25,376 nt of DNA from a virus. The stretch spans positions 1-25,376 of the IMG/VR virus record IMGVR_UViG_3300045977_000195, one strand, 5' to 3'. Position numbers and translations under genes: made by a program. Numbering within the stretch: position 1 is the stretch's first letter; each line of letters begins with the position of its first letter. Shown here one piece after another: positions 4,006-15,854 of the stretch. The notes beneath the pieces are model-generated. The model was not told where the DNA came from. It saw only the letters and a list, made by a program, of their open reading frames with translations, and ran no database searches.

Positions 4006-4776
4006 TTAGAAGCGAGTCTTAGACTTTCCCTTGGCGGGCGCCTTTGACGTCTGCCTGGCCGCCTGTGTGGCTGCCGGCGTGGCCTTTGGCGGCTGCTTGG
4101 CGGCCGGTGGTGCTACCAGCTCGGGCTGATCGTCCTCCACCTCGTCGCTGCGGTCATCGCGATCGAGCGAAGCGAAATCATCCTTCGCTTCCCAGCCGAC
4201 GATCTTGAAGGTGGGGAATTTCACCTTTCCGTATTCGTCGTGCTTGTAGCTGCCCTGACCGATCTCGATGATCGGAAAATCATCGGGCCGCTGCCGCATC
4301 TGCGCGCCGTACTTTTTGCACAGCTCACCGATCGCATTGAGGCCGCCGGTGCTCGAGGTGGCGAACGTGTACAGCTCGCCATCGCTGTCTTGCAGGATCA
4401 GCAAATTGGTTTTCTGCCAGGGATCACGCGAGGTGCCGTCCTCCTGGGACTGCCATTGATCCTCGTCCATGTCGCCTAGCTCGTTGCGCTTTGGCGCCTG
4501 GTAGCCGGTAGCGACGCGGCCGCCGACAAAATCGGTCGGCTTGTTGTCCCACCAGCGCTGCCAGCCAATCACCAGGTTGTCCATGTTGGCGGTGAACTGT
4601 GTGCCGTCCTCGATCGGCTCGTCGTCCTCGCCGGCGGTCCAATCACCTTTGCTGAATTTCAGCAGCTTGCCGATGATCGCGGTTTGTCTGACGCTGTTGC
4701 CGTATGCGGTGAAGGGGTTCTCGCCTGTCGTTGCCAGCTCCCTGCTACCGTTTTGCCTTTCCAGTTCTTTTGACAT
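4006..4776 (-). CDS. Conserved phage replication-cluster protein, possible DNA-binding, 256 aa
   Basis: The start is ATG 4776-4774 (MSKELERQNG), chosen because AGGAGA lies about 5 nt upstream. An in-frame ATG at 4809 lacks such a site. The core (about residues 30-195) resembles a conserved phage protein family, usually annotated hypothetical, as I remember it: GKLLKFSKGDW, WQRWWDNKP, GYQAPKRNELGD, SRDPWQKTN, FATSSTGGLNAIGELCKKYG and KVKFPTFKIVGW. The C-terminal third is a disordered acidic, then Ala/Pro/Lys-rich tail ending KSKTRF. Its place between the exonuclease and primase, with a structured core and flexible tail, fits an ssDNA-binding or recombination-partner role, but that is inference. 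The -TRF ending is shared with the primase. Confidence 0.85.
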   Translation of the reverse strand: MSKELERQNGSRELATTGENPFTAYGNSVRQTAIIGKLLKFSKGDWTAGEDDEPIEDGTQFTANMDNLVIGWQRWWDNKPTDFVGGRVATGYQAPKRNELGDMDEDQWQSQEDGTSRDPWQKTNLLILQDSDGELYTFATSSTGGLNAIGELCKKYGAQMRQRPDDFPIIEIGQGSYKHDEYGKVKFPTFKIVGWEAKDDFASLDRDDRSDEVEDDQPELVAPPAAKQPPKATPAATQAARQTSKAPAKGKSKTRF

Positions 4777-5884
4777 TGCTGTCTCCTGCTTGCGTTCGGC
4801 CTGGCTCATGCGCGGCCGGATCAGAGCTGTCTGCTCCGATTAGGATGAGCAGTCGATCGGTCGGCTCGCCGACCGTGTTGTACTGCCCGATATCCACACC
4901 CGCGGCCTCTGCGGCTTCGCGGATCTTTTTGTTATCCCATGATTCTCGACCTTTGACGCTGGACCAGCTCACGATGCCTGGTACCTTGCGGATGCCCTTA
5001 TCGCGCAGCCGGCTTTTCAGCTCATCCTGCTTGGCGCGCATCAGCGCATCACATGCGTCGCGACTATGCTCTGCCCCTTTGACAGCTCGGGCGAGATCCT
5101 CGATCTCCGAGACAAATTGCTTGTCGAGTTTTACGTCATTATCTGCAAACGGCAGATTCCGACGCTCGATCCCGCATGCGCGCGTAAATGGGCAGTGTCT
5201 GCATTCGGCGCCGCCGGCGATCCAACCCTCCGGCGGGAGCTTGTCGACCGATGTTGCGCGCATGATGCGCTGCGCGCGGTCTTGCGCCGACTGGTAGATC
5301 CGCTCGTCATATGCGACGACGAACTCGGTGACCTCCGACCAGAATGATGCGTCGATGTACGACAGCAGCGCATGCGTCGGTCGGTGTGGGGTCTTGGTGC
5401 GGATCAGGCCGAGCTGCACCTGGGTCTGATAGGTGTGCTGGCTCTTCGCTTCAGCCAGGTTCGTACGCGGGTCACTAGACTTGCACTCGAGCGTGACGCA
5501 GTCGCCGCAGTCGGCCGTGATCGCCTTGCGCTCGAGTGGTGTGAGCCGCACGGCCAGGCCGTCCGGTGTCGCGCTCAGATGTTTGTGTGCAAATGTTTTC
5601 TGCGAACGCCCAGCGAACAGCAGGCGCCGGCCGAATTTCTTCCGCATCGCCGGCACCCAAAGCATGCGCTCGATCACGCTGCCGCGCTTCCTGGCGCCCC
5701 AGCTCTCGGTAAATTCAGGATCCCGCTCGACGCCCAGCTCGGTGCCTTCGTTCTTGCGCCAGTACGTCTGGCGAATGCAGGCGCCGATCTCGGAGGCACC
5801 GACCGTCGAGGCGCGATCGCTCGAGCTGAAGGCCGGCTCGGCGTGCGAGACGTAGGCGTCGATAGCAGTCTTGATGATTGTCAT
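4745..5884 (-). CDS. Cas4/RecB-like PD-(D/E)XK exonuclease with Fe-S cysteines, 379 aa
   Basis: The start is ATG 5884-5882 with GGGGGA about 5 nt upstream; an upstream TTG extension is unlikely. Motifs in order are ASEIGACIRQTYW (about 30-42, with C36), ATPDGL (D108), TLECKSSD (E133 and K135, the E-x-K of the PD-(D/E)XK fold), QTQVQLGL (153-160) and the cysteine cluster ECRHCPFTRAC (C228, C231, C237). C36 plus the three late cysteines match the four-Cys iron-sulphur arrangement of Cas4/AddB-type nucleases. A charged helical region (about 250-320) and a C-terminal SWSSVKGRESWD...PTDRL block follow, as in YqaJ/Cas4-like phage exonucleases. Likely role: end resection for recombination-dependent replication, with the neighbouring 256-aa protein. 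Confidence 0.88.
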   Translation of the reverse strand: MTIIKTAIDAYVSHAEPAFSSSDRASTVGASEIGACIRQTYWRKNEGTELGVERDPEFTESWGARKRGSVIERMLWVPAMRKKFGRRLLFAGRSQKTFAHKHLSATPDGLAVRLTPLERKAITADCGDCVTLECKSSDPRTNLAEAKSQHTYQTQVQLGLIRTKTPHRPTHALLSYIDASFWSEVTEFVVAYDERIYQSAQDRAQRIMRATSVDKLPPEGWIAGGAECRHCPFTRACGIERRNLPFADNDVKLDKQFVSEIEDLARAVKGAEHSRDACDALMRAKQDELKSRLRDKGIRKVPGIVSWSSVKGRESWDNKKIREAAEAAGVDIGQYNTVGEPTDRLLILIGADSSDPAAHEPGRTQAGDSNVKRTGKAKR

Positions 5885-6011
5885 GCGAATCCCCCGCTGT
5901 GACGGCGTCCACGTTAGATGGCGAGCCGTCCAAGTCAAGTTGCCGTGATGCGGTGGCTCGGCACCGCTGTGGATACCAGGCCTTGTGGTTAGATCGGTGC
6001 TGACGAATCAG

Positions 6012-6338
6012 TCACGACCAGGGAGGGGACATCCTATGTCGTACGCACTCGTCGCTTACGTCAGCGTCTCGCTCGGCGCCTGCATCGGCATTCTTGTTGC
6101 CGGCATTTGCAGTGCGAGCGGCGATCCGTGAGCGAAACCTTTTTCGAAAGTCTCTTCGATCGCGCGCGAGATCAATGCGATCGAGAAGAGGTTCTGTGTA
6201 ATAGCCGAGCCCGTAGCCGATCAGGATGCCGGCCAGGAGCTGGTAGTCCACGAGCCACTGGTAGAGCCACCAGCTCTGCTTATGCGCGTCCCACCACCAG
6301 CTCAGCTGATGGAGTTGAAAGGTGATCTCGTCAATCAC
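6012..6338 (-). CDS. Small membrane-associated hypothetical protein, 108 aa
   Basis: The only plausible start is GTG 6338-6336, overlapping the TGA of the upstream gene by 8 nt, consistent with coupling. The N-terminal third is Trp/His-rich (HQLSWWWDAHKQSWWLYQWL). It is followed by one likely transmembrane segment (LLAGILIGYGLGYYTEPLL, about 34-52) and a strongly basic juxtamembrane stretch. The last 35-40 residues look unstructured and are overlapped by an opposite-strand ORF with a strong ribosome site. Function is unknown; a membrane-anchored accessory protein is plausible. Confidence 0.6.
   Translation of the reverse strand: MIDEITFQLHQLSWWWDAHKQSWWLYQWLVDYQLLAGILIGYGLGYYTEPLLDRIDLARDRRDFRKRFRSRIAARTANAGNKNADAGAERDADVSDECVRHRMSPPWS
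6036..6131 (+). CDS. 31-aa one-helix membrane peptide, antisense to the leftward operon
   Basis: The ATG at 6036 is preceded by GGGAGGGGAC at about 5 nt, one of the strongest ribosome sites here. The product has one hydrophobic segment (ALVAYVSVSLGACIGILVAG, residues 4-23) and a short polar end. It is the only plus-strand gene candidate within the leftward operon. It overlaps the 3' end of the 108-aa gene. I see no convincing -35/-10 pair, though GAATCAGTCACG upstream recalls the GTCAC leader element found before other plus-strand genes. Confidence 0.5.
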   Translation: MSYALVAYVSVSLGACIGILVAGICSASGDP

Positions 6339-6690: not shown

Positions 6691-6719
6691 AAAAAGGGCG
6701 GGGTGCCACACCCCCGCCC
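6691..6719 (-). terminator. Rho-independent terminator after the PEP-CTERM pair
   Basis: Read on the minus strand, GGGCGGGGGTG and CACCCCGCCC form a GC-rich stem (one bulged base) with a very short loop, followed by TTTTTCTTT. It starts 13 bp after the stop of the 230-aa PEP-CTERM gene. This is a textbook intrinsic terminator inside an otherwise continuous minus-strand gene array. Confidence 0.8.
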
Positions 6720-6731
6720 CCTCGCCACAAC

Positions 6732-7424
6732 TTACGCAGCAGCAGCTTGATTTTCGTCAGGCTGTTGCTGTTTCTTTTTTCGTTGACGCGATAGCCACCA
6801 CAGCCCACCGAGCCCTGACACAAACAGCGGCAGCGCTCCTGGGATTGGCACGTTGCTCACCTCGAATGGTGTTGGCGTGAGCACACCCGCGATGCCGACC
6901 GCGCCTGTGCCGCTGCCGTCAGCCAACAAGATGTCGACTGCCGCCAGAATACTCAGGCCGTTAAATGTCTCGGTCGCGAACCCAAATCCCTGAAAGTCAG
7001 TGATGTTGAAGCTCACGGTCGAGCCGCACGTTGCAGATCCGCCTGGTCCGCAGTCCGCAGCAATCGCATCCGTGAAATACTTAAACGGAGAGTTGCTGTA
7101 GCCGTTCTGCGAGCTGAGCGGCGCTGTCAGGTGTGTCCCCACGGTGAATGGGAAAACGCCTGCACCAAACGTGACGGTCGTCGGGTCAATCCTGCCGGTA
7201 CCGAGCAGCGTGGTCGTGAAGAGAAAGTGACTCCCGGTATCGATCAGGAAATTCGGATCCATGTTGATGTCGATGTCCACAGTGGAGCACGCGACGTTCA
7301 GACATGTCGCCGTAGCGGTGCCAAAGTTTCCAGTGCCGAATGCTTCGGACTGGGTGAACGTGGCGGCTTGAGCTGGCAGAGCGAGCCCTGCCAGCATCGT
7401 CGCAGCAAGCATCAGGCGGCGCAT
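6732..7424 (-). CDS. Secreted PEP-CTERM sorting-signal protein, 230 aa
   Basis: The start is ATG 7424-7422 with a perfect AGGAGG 5-6 nt upstream. The frame stays open upstream of this, but the extra residues are non-homologous Arg-rich sequence. A Sec signal peptide is clear (MRRLMLAATMLAGLALPAQA, cut after AQA). The mature part is Thr/Gly/Ser-rich and beta-like, with four cysteines (41, 46, 125, 133). The C-terminus carries the exosortase signal: VPIPGALPL (192-200), a hydrophobic stretch to about 211, then RQRKKK, plus a short polar extension. Proteins of this type are exported, processed by a host exosortase and tied to exopolysaccharide or the cell surface. No exosortase is in the window, so any processing would rely on the host. 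It overlaps the upstream PEP-CTERM gene by 13 nt. Confidence 0.88.
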   Translation of the reverse strand: MRRLMLAATMLAGLALPAQAATFTQSEAFGTGNFGTATATCLNVACSTVDIDINMDPNFLIDTGSHFLFTTTLLGTGRIDPTTVTFGAGVFPFTVGTHLTAPLSSQNGYSNSPFKYFTDAIAADCGPGGSATCGSTVSFNITDFQGFGFATETFNGLSILAAVDILLADGSGTGAVGIAGVLTPTPFEVSNVPIPGALPLFVSGLGGLWWLSRQRKKKQQQPDENQAAAA

Positions 7425-7981
7425 GGCGCCTCCTGTTCTGTGACGACCTTCTTGCGCCTGCGTGCGAGCCAACCGAGCCCGCCCAGGCCGCCGGCAAACA
7501 GCCACACGGCCGCCGGCAGAGGCACCTCTGAGACAGCGAAGGTTGCCAAGTTTCCGCCGTAGCCACTGGTGCCGCCGGCGAAGCCTTCGATGTTCAGAAA
7601 GTAATCGCCGGCCGCCAAGATGGCGGATCCTGCGAACCCCTGGCAGTTGACGATGAACCCGCAAGGCGAGCTTGCGAGCACAGGTCCGATGACCGTTGCG
7701 CCAGGAAGAGCTGGCGTGCCGGCGATGACGGATCCGGTGAAGAACCCGATCACATCGGATGGTTGCGCGAACACGTTGGTCACGCTCGCGATCGTCAGCG
7801 TCGCTGACTGCGTGAGGTGGAACGTGTACTGATCACTGAAGAATCCAACGAGCGAACCGAGCGAGTGATTAAACGCGCCGGCAGCTGACGTTGGATCCGC
7901 TCCGAAATCAGTAATCGTCGCGGCAGACACCGACCCGCTAAGGCCGATCGCCGCGACGGCAGCTAGTACAAGTTTTCGCAT
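7412..7981 (-). CDS. Secreted PEP-CTERM (VPLPA-type) sorting-signal protein, 189 aa
   Basis: The start is ATG 7981-7979 (MRKLVLAAVAAIGLSGSVSA) with AAGGAGAT about 6 nt upstream. Residues 1-20 form a signal peptide. The body contains patterns common in PEP-CTERM proteins: SDQYTFHLTQSATLTIASV (about 49-67) and AAGDYFLNIEGFAGGTSGYGG (about 123-143). Two cysteines lie at 107 and 113. The sorting signal is EVPLPAAVWLFAGGLGGLGW (152-171) followed by LARRRKK and a short tail. It lies directly after the 174-aa gene and overlaps the second PEP-CTERM gene. A moron-type surface-altering function is inferred: the pair is unrelated to replication yet embedded in that operon and closed by its own terminator. 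Confidence 0.9.
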   Translation of the reverse strand: MRKLVLAAVAAIGLSGSVSAATITDFGADPTSAAGAFNHSLGSLVGFFSDQYTFHLTQSATLTIASVTNVFAQPSDVIGFFTGSVIAGTPALPGATVIGPVLASSPCGFIVNCQGFAGSAILAAGDYFLNIEGFAGGTSGYGGNLATFAVSEVPLPAAVWLFAGGLGGLGWLARRRKKVVTEQEAPCAA

Positions 7982-7998
7982 AGAGATCTCCTTCTCTC

Positions 7999-8523
7999 TC
8001 AAAACACCCGATCGGGTTTGGACGCCGATCGGGATCTCAGGATCACCTCGCGGATGATCTCGAATACTGTGGGCTCCTCGCCCAGGTTACTGTCGTCAAA
8101 GGGCTCGAGCCCGTTGCGCTCGCGCAGGCGCGCAATCGAGCTGGCGATGATTGAGAGCGCCAGGTGACGCGTGTCGAGGTCGGCCTCGCGCAGCCAGGCG
8201 GCCTGGCGAACATGGCGGATCAGATCCTCGCCGTTCTCGAGTGTCATGTGGCGCAGCGCTTTGCGAAGATCCTGCCAGCCGTGCATGAGCCGGCGATCGG
8301 CGTACGATTCCTTCAAAGATCGTCGACGAAGCGCTCGCCATTGCGCCATTTGGCGCGCCTGGTCGCGGAGCTTCTTCTCGGTTGCGGTGGGGATCAGCGG
8401 CGCGTCGCGCTCGCTCTTGTAGATCTTCGCCTGGCGCTTCGCCTCTGCGCGCAGTTTCGCCTTGCCGGGACCATGCATGAGCTGGTCGCCGAGCTGCGAA
8501 AAGAAATCAGGCTGTTGCTCCAC
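7999..8523 (-). CDS. Hypothetical helical protein, 174 aa
   Basis: It starts with GTG 8523-8521 (MEQQPDFFSQL), with AGGAGC about 9 nt upstream, and overlaps the VRR-NUC gene by 17 nt. The protein is highly charged and helical. A basic region (KAKLRAEAKRQAKIYKSERD, then RDQARQMAQWRALRRRSLK) is followed by a C-terminal helical domain. The basic N-terminal half could bind nucleic acid, but I recognise no family. Its overlap with the nuclease gene suggests joint translation. Confidence 0.75.
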   Translation of the reverse strand: MEQQPDFFSQLGDQLMHGPGKAKLRAEAKRQAKIYKSERDAPLIPTATEKKLRDQARQMAQWRALRRRSLKESYADRRLMHGWQDLRKALRHMTLENGEDLIRHVRQAAWLREADLDTRHLALSIIASSIARLRERNGLEPFDDSNLGEEPTVFEIIREVILRSRSASKPDRVF

Positions 8524-8893
8524 TGCGGAGTGCTCCTATGACACCCAGGAACCCTAGCGCCTCGTCCAGGGTCTTGGCAACGAAATATGGATGACCCAAC
8601 CTTAAACATTTAGCCTGGAAGCCTGCCTGAGCGTCGGACTGGCGGCCGTTCAGCGTCTTAAGCTCGAGCCAAGCACAGCGACCTTTCTCGAGCATGATGC
8701 ACAGATCTGCGACGCCGGCGGTCATGCCCTCGGCCTTCATCCTGGCGCCGTAGCGGTGTGATCGCTTGCCGGCGTTGGGGATTGCAAACCAGTTTAGATC
8801 GCGCCGACCGTACGTCCGCAGATGCCGCAGCACCTCGAGCTGGAGCCGGTGTTCGCTTATGTCGTCGCCGATGCCGGCTGCCACCGCACGCAC
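8507..8893 (-). CDS. VRR-NUC domain nuclease, Holliday-junction-resolvase-like, 128 aa
   Basis: The compact PD-(D/E)XK fold is visible: an N-terminal helix with E14, Q18 and E20, IPNAGKRS (38-45), the catalytic block TAGVADLCIM (58-67, D63), and WLELKT (75-80, E77 and K79) followed by Q-rich FQAKCLRLG. VRR-NUC proteins cut branched or flap DNA and are common in phage replication modules. The start is GTG 8893, overlapping the GcrA-like gene by 37 nt; a second GTG three codons later is possible. The length is typical of stand-alone VRR-NUC proteins. Confidence 0.88.
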   Translation of the reverse strand: MRAVAAGIGDDISEHRLQLEVLRHLRTYGRRDLNWFAIPNAGKRSHRYGARMKAEGMTAGVADLCIMLEKGRCAWLELKTLNGRQSDAQAGFQAKCLRLGHPYFVAKTLDEALGFLGVIGALRSGATA

Positions 8894-9303
8894 CCGATCT
8901 TCATGTGCGCTTCACAGTACGAGCGACCTTCGACCGAGACGGCGCCGCAGTACAGATACGGAGTGCGATCGCCGAAAGGCCAGCGGCAGCTGTTAGAGCG
9001 CAGCTCCTCGATTTTCAGCGTGCCCTTGCCGACGATCGTCGGCCTGGGTGGTGGCGCGTGAAACACCGGGAGCTTGGGACGATGCTCGAGCCGCACCTCC
9101 GGCTTGCGCGGGAGGTAGCCGCCCTTTTTCTTTTTGCGTGTCGGCACGTTTAATCGCTTTCCGATTCCGATCGCCATGTTCTTAGAGATCGGGATCCCAA
9201 ATTCGGCAGAGAGAGTCTGCGCGATCTTCTTGTATCGGTGCTCTTCTGGGTCAGCCACCAGTTGGAGAAATCTCGCCTTGAGCTGCTCGGTCCACACGGT
9301 CAT
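8857..9303 (-). CDS. GcrA-family transcriptional regulator, 148 aa
   Basis: GcrA is an alphaproteobacterial cell-cycle regulator that joins sigma70 RNA polymerase and acts at promoters with methylated GANTC. The N-terminal part matches: WTEQLKARF (4-12), KKIAQTLSAEFGIPISKNMAIGIGKRLNVP (25-54), the helix-turn-helix with the characteristic NMAIGIGKRL helix. A basic Lys linker (57-60) follows. The C-terminal domain has the hallmark SCRWPFGD (105-112), YLYCG (116-120) and GRSYCEAH (126-133). AAGGA lies about 9 nt upstream of ATG 9303. It overlaps the HTH gene by 53 nt and is second in the leftward operon. It could redirect host polymerase or cell-cycle promoters during infection; that is inference. 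Confidence 0.92.
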   Translation of the reverse strand: MTVWTEQLKARFLQLVADPEEHRYKKIAQTLSAEFGIPISKNMAIGIGKRLNVPTRKKKKGGYLPRKPEVRLEHRPKLPVFHAPPPRPTIVGKGTLKIEELRSNSCRWPFGDRTPYLYCGAVSVEGRSYCEAHMKIGCVRWQPASATT

Positions 9304-10918: not shown

Positions 10919-11812
10919 ATGAAGAAAACAGCGATTTACGGACTGCCCCTGAACCCGATGCCGTTGCTCAACGAGCTGAAGGGCGCCTCGTTCTGCGTGT
11001 CCTACGCAACCCGCGACAAGCTCGGCAAGCAGCTCGAGCAGGCGATCGAGCTGGTTGGTCAGGACGGCATCCTCCTGGTCGACAACGGTGCGTTCTCGCA
11101 CTGGCAGAGCGGTGGCGCGATGACTGAGGAGTACATCGAGGCTTACGAGATCTGGGCGGAAGAGATCCTCGAGCGCTGCCCGCAGGCCGTCGCAGTGATC
11201 CCCGACGTCATCGGCGGCACGATGGAGCAGAACGCCGAGCTGGTCGAAACCACGCTGCTCGATCTCGATCGCGCCATGCCGATCTGGCACATGCACGAGC
11301 CCATCAGCTACCTGATCGGCCTTTGCGAGCGCTTCAACTACATCGGGTTCGGCTCCACGATGGACGCGCCTGGCTCGGCCGCCTGGCACGCACGCATCAA
11401 GGAAGCCTTCGACGCGATCGAGGCCTGGGAGAAGGACGCCGGCGAGGTTCGCCCGCGGATCCACATGATGCGCGCCCAGTCGTTCGCACATCAGTACGCG
11501 TTCGACAGCAGCGACAGCACCAACGTCGCGGTCAATCACAACCGCCAGCTCAAGAAGAGCGGCGAGACGATCAAGGCCTTCGCCGGCCGCATCGACAGCA
11601 AGATCCAGGCGAGCTGCGACGGCCGCGACAGCGACCACCAGGAGAAGCGCCCGCTGCTCGGCCACCTCGAGGACAAGGCGATGCAGCTCCAGTGGTTCCT
11701 GCGCGATGCCGGCTACCTGGTCGATTGGGACAACAGCGCCGAGCGCGCTGCCAAGCACGCCCAGGCCGACGCCTGGCTCGAGCAGTATTTCGCCAACGAA
11801 CAAGCAGCTTGA
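10919..11812 (+). CDS. dpdA-like: TGT/DpdA-like deazaguanine transglycosylase, 297 aa
   Basis: This appears to be a TIM-barrel enzyme related to tRNA-guanine transglycosylase. The DpdA subfamily swaps guanine in DNA for a 7-deazaguanine. Visible signposts are LLVDNGAFSHW (52-62; D55 in the position of the DSG/DNGAF motif), VIPDVIGGTMEQN (93-105; D96), PIWHMHEP (121-128), NYIGFGS (140-146), RIHMMRA (180-186) and YAFDSSDSTN (193-202; D196, D199, the candidate nucleophile region). No four-Cys zinc site of the classic bacterial TGT is present. The length fits compact phage DpdA-type proteins. GAGGAG precedes ATG 10919. It has its own promoter, a near-copy of that of the PP-loop gene. No preQ0 synthesis genes are in view, so substrate would come from the host or from elsewhere in the phage. 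A tRNA-directed role remains possible. Confidence 0.72.
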   Translation: MKKTAIYGLPLNPMPLLNELKGASFCVSYATRDKLGKQLEQAIELVGQDGILLVDNGAFSHWQSGGAMTEEYIEAYEIWAEEILERCPQAVAVIPDVIGGTMEQNAELVETTLLDLDRAMPIWHMHEPISYLIGLCERFNYIGFGSTMDAPGSAAWHARIKEAFDAIEAWEKDAGEVRPRIHMMRAQSFAHQYAFDSSDSTNVAVNHNRQLKKSGETIKAFAGRIDSKIQASCDGRDSDHQEKRPLLGHLEDKAMQLQWFLRDAGYLVDWDNSAERAAKHAQADAWLEQYFANEQAA

Positions 11813-15077: not shown

Positions 15078-15854
15078 ATGAACGAAGCGACCCGCACCTC
15101 ACCGATGATCGTCTCTTACGGAATGGGCGTCGACAGCACCGCGGTGCTCGTCGGCCTGGCGCAGCGCGGTGAGCGCCCCGACGCGATCCTGTTTGCGGAC
15201 ACCGGCTCGGAGAAGCCTGAGACGTACGCGTACCTCGCCACGATCAATGCGTGGCTCGAGACGGTCGGTTTTCCCCAGGTCACGGTCGTGAAGAACCCGC
15301 GGCTGAAGAGCGGCGACAAGAGCCTCTACGAGGCTTGCCACCGCACCCAGGTTTTGCCGGCGCTCGCCTACGGCATGCACCAGTGCTCGATCGTCTGGAA
15401 GCTCGACCCGCAGATGTGGTTCGTGCGCGGCAACCGCAACCAAGGCATCAAACCCTGGCAGCCGGCCGTCGACGCCTGGGCGCGCGGCGAGCTGGTCACC
15501 TTCTGCATCGGCTACGACAATGGCGATCGCGATCGCAAGCGCTGCTCGCAAGCGTTCGGCAAGACCCAGGAAGGTTTCCAGAATCGTTACCCGCTGATCG
15601 AGTGGGGCTGGGATCGCGAGGAGTGTGAGCGCCAGATCGCAGCGGCCGGTTTGCCGGTCCCGGTGAAGAGCGCCTGCTTCTTCTGCCCCGCATCAACCAA
15701 ACCAGAGATCGATAGCCTGGTTGCCAAGCACCCAAACCTGGTTGCGATGGCGATCGAGCTGGAGACACGCGCGAAGGAAAAAGGCCTGAAGAGCGTGAAA
15801 GGCCTGGGCCGTCGTTGGGCCTGGGGAGACTACGTCAACAACACCGCAGCTTAG
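15078..15854 (+). CDS. PP-loop ATP pyrophosphatase, PAPS-reductase/DndC-like, 258 aa
   Basis: The N-terminal SYGMGVDSTAVLVG (13-26) is the PP-loop that binds ATP in adenylating enzymes such as PAPS reductase, DndC and QueC. LFADTGSEKPETYAYL (38-53) is the following conserved block. A middle region has C87, GMHQCSIVWKLDPQ (99-112), C143 and C156. YPLIEWGWDREECE (171-184) and KSACFFCPASTKPEI (197-211) are typical of phage and mobile-element PAPS-reductase-like proteins; C200 and C203 could bind a metal or cluster. The family activates a substrate by adenylation or moves sulphur. No sulphate-assimilation genes are present. Sharing a promoter cassette with the DpdA-like gene suggests nucleic-acid modification instead. 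The exact substrate is unknown. Confidence 0.82.
   Translation: MNEATRTSPMIVSYGMGVDSTAVLVGLAQRGERPDAILFADTGSEKPETYAYLATINAWLETVGFPQVTVVKNPRLKSGDKSLYEACHRTQVLPALAYGMHQCSIVWKLDPQMWFVRGNRNQGIKPWQPAVDAWARGELVTFCIGYDNGDRDRKRCSQAFGKTQEGFQNRYPLIEWGWDREECERQIAAAGLPVPVKSACFFCPASTKPEIDSLVAKHPNLVAMAIELETRAKEKGLKSVKGLGRRWAWGDYVNNTAA

Follow-up and report, generated by a model that had tools for sequence, protein, structure and literature searches.

A phage-borne pair of genes for candidate exosortase substrates with class-matched sorting tails

PEP-CTERM/exosortase (EpsH) sorting was described from bacterial genomes that carry their own EpsH, in a report that does not mention phages (Haft et al. 2006, PMC1569441). 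In Zoogloea, Aquincola and relatives, aggregation depends on exosortase-type surface proteins, the flocculation-associated PEP-CTERM proteins (PMC9012009, PMC9850573). So far, exosortase sorting has been regarded as belonging to the host, as part of its surface and exopolysaccharide biology. The known phage morons and lysogenic-conversion genes that alter the host surface encode glycosyltransferases, lipoproteins or membrane proteins. Searches limited to open-access literature on PEP-CTERM or exosortase in combination with phage, prophage, viral auxiliary genes and soil viruses found no report of phage-borne exosortase substrates, in line with the little precedent remarked on in a preliminary description of this DNA.

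The 25,376-base window analysed here, from a soil phage, is an IMG/VR virus record in its entirety and is classed linear; the presence in it of a phage-borne gene pair with sorting tails is confirmed. The phage genes share with the PEP-CTERM/EpsH system a signal peptide, a proline motif, a hydrophobic helix, a basic cluster, diverse ectodomains and several substrates per genome, but the substrates here are carried by phages without an exosortase. The flocculation-associated proteins differ in being host-encoded, and they show no ectodomain relationship over cut-off to the upstream gene of the pair, gene A. Like surface-altering morons, these are accessory genes at variable sites, and some of the phages carry an integrase (a tyrosine integrase in 10 of 50 phage records); however, no report was found of such morons being exosortase-sorted. 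In our reading, which is given a probability of about 0.6, gene A and its neighbour, gene B, are phage morons encoding exosortase substrates, and it is an exosortase of the host that brings these to the cell surface.

Layout and anatomy of the gene pair

Gene A (7412-7981, minus strand; 189 aa, FxDxF-family PEP-CTERM protein) and gene B (6732-7424, minus strand; 230 aa, predicted to be secreted) both start with ATG and lie head to tail with a shared overlap of 13 bp, so that the two adjacent, overlapping genes of the preliminary description are both present as open reading frames. Each has a Shine-Dalgarno sequence: AAGGAG at 7988-7993 (minus), 6 nt upstream of the ATG of A, and AGGAGG at 7429-7434 (minus), 4 nt upstream of the ATG of B and within the last codons of A. 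Because the start codon of B and its AGGAGG lie inside the 3' end of A, translation of the two genes is likely to be coupled. Directly 3' of B, a pattern scan and RNA folding identified a strong intrinsic terminator (6694-6719, minus), consisting of a GC-rich hairpin followed by a T-rich stretch (fold -28.6 kcal/mol, z -3.2). The terminator accounts for the lower edge (6691-6731) of the interval that had first been delimited. A pattern scan upstream of gene A found no sigma-70-like promoter.

Protein A is laid out as a signal peptide (about residues 1-20), an ectodomain (21-149) and a VPLPA-CTERM tail (153-177). Its predicted signal peptide has the n-region MRK, a hydrophobic core (KD 2.2) and a site between SVSA and A; a signal peptide is likewise predicted for B from sequence features, as had been claimed for both genes. 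The sorting tail of A (VPLPAAVWLFAGGLGGLGWLARRRKK; 7451-7525, minus) corresponds to the match to TIGR03370 (VPLPA-CTERM), which scores 32.8 bits against a cut-off of 25.35. The protein also passes NF038126, the FxDxF family of PEP-CTERM proteins, at 63.7 bits against a cut-off of 50, residues 8-176 aligning with positions 4-165 of the 165-position profile. It lies under the cut-offs of Pfam PEP-CTERM (17.2 versus 20.7) and TIGR02595 (12.1 versus 16), and it has weak profile similarity to NF033554 (PepA). Judged by curated sorting-domain models, A is a predicted PEP-CTERM/exosortase substrate.

Protein B has the same order of parts, a signal peptide, a proline motif, a hydrophobic stretch and a basic cluster (VPIPGALPLF...SRQRKKK). 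Its tail (VPIPGALPLFVSGLGGLWWLSRQRKKK; 6771-6851, minus) is of the same class as that of A and 53% identical to it. No NCBIfam model scored B over cut-off, the PEP-CTERM families reaching about 14 bits at best, and the VPIPGALPLF tail is not recognised by TIGR03370. The anatomy, the likeness to the tail of A and the neighbouring position suggest that this tail is a sorting signal. Both tails had been called textbook PEP-CTERM tails, which is a slight overstatement: A passes NF038126 and TIGR03370 but neither Pfam PEP-CTERM nor TIGR02595, and B passes no model, so that the profile search named beforehand as a refuting check is survived by A and not by B. A detector that requires both a signal peptide and a tail gave 1 positive among 5524 shuffled ORFs and 16 among 5524 unrelated real ORFs; with so low a background two adjacent positive genes are not explained by chance.

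The possibility that B is a duplicate of A was ruled out, as there is no similarity between the ectodomains, in agreement with the earlier statement that the pair is not a simple duplication. A search with the B ectodomain against all fetched ORFs matched B alone, and no relatives of B were found in viral contigs or cultured phages.

Phage context, relatives and moron behaviour

The pair is located in a replication/recombination operon whose flanking phage genes have the same direction. Upstream lie a gene for a 174-aa phage protein, 17 bp from A (7999-8523, minus), a VRR-NUC-type endonuclease gene (8507-8893, minus; phrog_824, 1.5e-27; Pfam VRR_NUC 21.2 bits, just under the cut-off of 23.8) and a gene for a GcrA-like regulator (8857-9303, minus; PF07750, 42.2 bits, over cut-off). 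Downstream are genes for a 113-aa phage protein (6331-6672, minus; phrog_1231, 6e-9), a 108-aa, weakly holin-like protein with a membrane segment (6012-6338, minus; phrog_5308, E 0.0075), a RecE-like exonuclease of the replication/recombination module (4745-5887, minus; phrog_434, 3e-18) and a phage primase/helicase (1080-3923, minus; phrog_1829, 7e-38; Pfam D5_N). Phage genes thus flank the pair on both sides, and the window also encodes ejection proteins, tail fibres and a DNA methyltransferase. The GcrA-like gene suggests an alphaproteobacterial host; GcrA-like genes also recur near the tail-gene cassettes of other contigs. The primase, capsid and portal matched cultured phages at 23-35% identity, too remote for a host to be named.

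Two further genes of the window are recorded here as separate observations. A phage queuine tRNA-ribosyltransferase-like gene (10919-11812, plus; phrog_887, 3.6e-31) is DpdA-like, and the phage DNA may on this basis be modified with 7-deazaguanines. A phosphoadenosine phosphosulfate reductase-like gene (15078-15854, plus; phrog_424, 6.6e-23) is of a kind common among phage auxiliary or DNA-modification genes.

In a related phage, L084, the genes for RecE (57% identity), SSB (47%), VRR-NUC (57%) and the 174-aa protein (40%) are ordered as in the window, but about 0.3 kb stands where the window has 2.1 kb containing A and B together with two small genes. At a different place, L084 encodes a further protein of this class. 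Since the pair is absent at this locus in a related phage and a class member occurs elsewhere, A and B behave as moron genes, that is, as accessory genes.

Viral scans placed relatives of A in 24 IMG/VR contigs besides the window, several of them near-identical copies, in varied gene contexts. The contigs of these relatives and of the partner families described below carry terminase, portal, capsid, endolysin, RecT and polymerase genes. A match to the FxDxF family at E ≤ 0.001 was obtained for all 16 A-family members scanned (A itself and 15 sampled viral relatives). The viral clade differs from NF038126 at large in being found only in phages here and in having three classes of tail, some members of one class (G) scoring below cut-off (40.7 versus 50 for the member in contig L003). 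Two scans of about 85,000 bacterial and archaeal genomes, which used short peptide patterns and so bound close relatives of A only, found none. These distributions identify the stretch as phage sequence and not as host chromosome misjoined to it, which the preliminary description had named as a possible fault.

They also bear on the idea that the genes are host genes, carried by chance or through misassembly, with no role for the phage. Morons are often host-derived, the NF038126 family is used for naming bacterial proteins, and L084 lacks the pair at this place, all of which would fit. Yet the same clade occurs in many unrelated phages and in none of the genomes scanned, the ectodomains are under purifying selection (see below), and phage genes of the same operon direction stand on both sides; we regard this explanation as very improbable.

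Partner families, tail classes and tail exchange

In other phages, A lies beside further secreted proteins whose tails are of this kind. They fall into family B1 (from L003; at least 87 viral contigs), family P3 (from L042; at least 187 viral contigs) and a third family (11 viral contigs). P3 (7476-8237 in L042) has a recurrent PCxICGxxQ motif and no Pfam match. No members of the A, B1 or P3 families were found in cultured phages and plasmids; two Sulfitobacter plasmid matches at E 0.7 were rejected as chance. The case that phage-borne, exosortase-type substrates are widespread among uncultivated phages is strengthened by these counts.

Three tail classes were distinguished: L (VPLPA-like, as in the window), E (PEPxxW) and G (VPGPxxGAGxPG). 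TIGR03370 covers the tail of A, in contrast to the PEPxxW and VPGPxxGAGxPG tails of other viral relatives, and the G tail matched none of the NCBIfam tail models at E 0.001. The G tails, of the form VPGPxxGAGxPG...RRR (L003 7264-7935, L090, L024 and others), have the anatomy of an exosortase signal, and a new sorting-signal model might be built on them. Bradyrhizobium-like bacteria probably have many G-type tails. A search for the host's tail class through plasmids bearing a G-type tail gave no match.

Each of A, B1 and P3 is found with all three tail classes. At least 13 changes of tail class are required on the B1 ectodomain tree (63 rows) and at least 6 on the A ectodomain tree (17 rows), the branches of which are poorly resolved. 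The DNA of L045 and L060 is 70-90% identical in the greater part of the ectodomain, with a drop to 45-50% where the tail is reached. The class is nevertheless concordant in 24 of 24 unique adjacent pairs despite their different ectodomain families, and no discordant adjacent pair was found among them. Under free shuffling this agreement would have a probability of 1.2e-10, a figure that overstates the significance because the pairs include related phages. A pair of adjacent ORFs in L006 proved to be a false detector call and was left out of the count.

The simplest reading of the agreement is that a single sorting enzyme, in a single host, has to accept both tails of a pair. Alternatively, it could come from recombination between neighbouring tails; in L062 (9001-10377), two neighbouring genes with unrelated ectodomains have tails that are 89% identical in DNA, as if one had been copied from the other, which suggests recombination in at least one case. 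The view that the tails behave as exchangeable, class-matched modules is strengthened.

These patterns also weigh on the main rival to exosortase sorting, namely that A and B are plain periplasmic proteins anchored in the inner membrane, where they might block the DNA entry of a second phage with no need of an exosortase. A signal peptide, an ectodomain, a C-terminal helix and a basic cluster would give this topology without any sortase, no exosortase was found in the 50 phage records, and known superinfection exclusion proteins are often located in the inner membrane or periplasm. However, such an anchor needs none of the three specific proline motifs, and it predicts neither the 24 of 24 class agreement between unrelated ectodomains nor the repeated exchange of the tail alone. 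We therefore consider it unlikely.

Ectodomains and the proposed surface role

Pairwise dN/dS values of about 0.05-0.13 indicate purifying selection on the ectodomains, in which about 30 columns are invariant over 16 viruses. This conservation is relevant to the proposal that the proteins are decoys, the phage substrate flooding the host exosortase and thereby keeping the surface proteins of the host from being displayed. Intact, class-matched tails are what a decoy would have, but a conserved ectodomain is not needed for it, and the proposal is very doubtful.

Besides a signal helix and a C-terminal helix, the AlphaFold model of A (pLDDT 76; ectodomain mostly 77-91) has a beta-sandwich, which is predicted with moderate to high confidence. 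The best solved match of the ectodomain is a collagen-binding/PPC domain (TM 0.69 by target and 0.39 by query; E 8e-5), and CBM6/CBM35 are also among the nearest solved folds. The Pfam PPC profile does not match A, so that the likeness to the pre-peptidase C-terminal domain is one of fold only. The B1 model (pLDDT 89) has weak matches to CBM29 and a flagellar sheath protein. With TM values by query of 0.3-0.4, the structural matches are weak, and they are resemblances and not family memberships.

A resemblance to carbohydrate-binding modules could also fit late-made proteins whose action comes with lysis or once they are released, such as the binding of exopolysaccharide debris or neighbouring cells. 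Several relatives place the gene within 50-850 bp of an endolysin gene, which would agree with such timing. Most relatives are not beside lysis genes, though, and the pair in the window belongs to a replication/recombination operon; a constant location beside lysis or packaging genes was rejected as a general feature, as the position varies. A late role is accordingly rated improbable.

The reading that we prefer remains sorting by the host. No exosortase was found in any of the 50 phage records, the window included, and a host enzyme is proposed to process the tails. A and B would be co-translated from a single message ending at the terminator and would be exported by Sec by means of their cleavable signal peptides, the C-terminal helix and basic cluster then holding them in the inner membrane. 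The host exosortase would cut at the proline motif, and the ectodomains would be moved to the outer surface or into the exopolysaccharide, where they would form a coat on the infected cell or cross-link its surface. The most likely benefit would be that further phage adsorption is blocked or aggregation is changed. We infer superinfection exclusion, or a change of matrix or biofilm, as the purpose. The interpretation in the preliminary description is partly supported by the present analysis, namely as to exosortase-type sorting tails on a genuine phage; its suggestion that the host surface is remodelled to exclude other phages or alter biofilm is still a proposal. A broader version of this reading is given about even odds: uncultivated environmental phages would carry a large repertoire of surface proteins from several families, with modular tails swapped to fit whichever exosortase the present host has and VPGPxxGAGxPG as a new exosortase signal, and would use the host enzyme to redecorate the infected cell.

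If phages do make class-matched substrates, this would be a new way for them to alter the surface of environmental bacteria, and the exchanged tails would amount to a natural tail-swap experiment for exosortase specificity. The tail class may then help to predict the hosts of uncultivated phages, and hundreds of unstudied genes for surface proteins would be at hand. The recurrent pairing with unrelated partners makes the idea of surface remodelling directly testable. As a minor observation, three consecutive exosortase-type genes, all with G-class tails, are present at 4559-7608 of contig L066.
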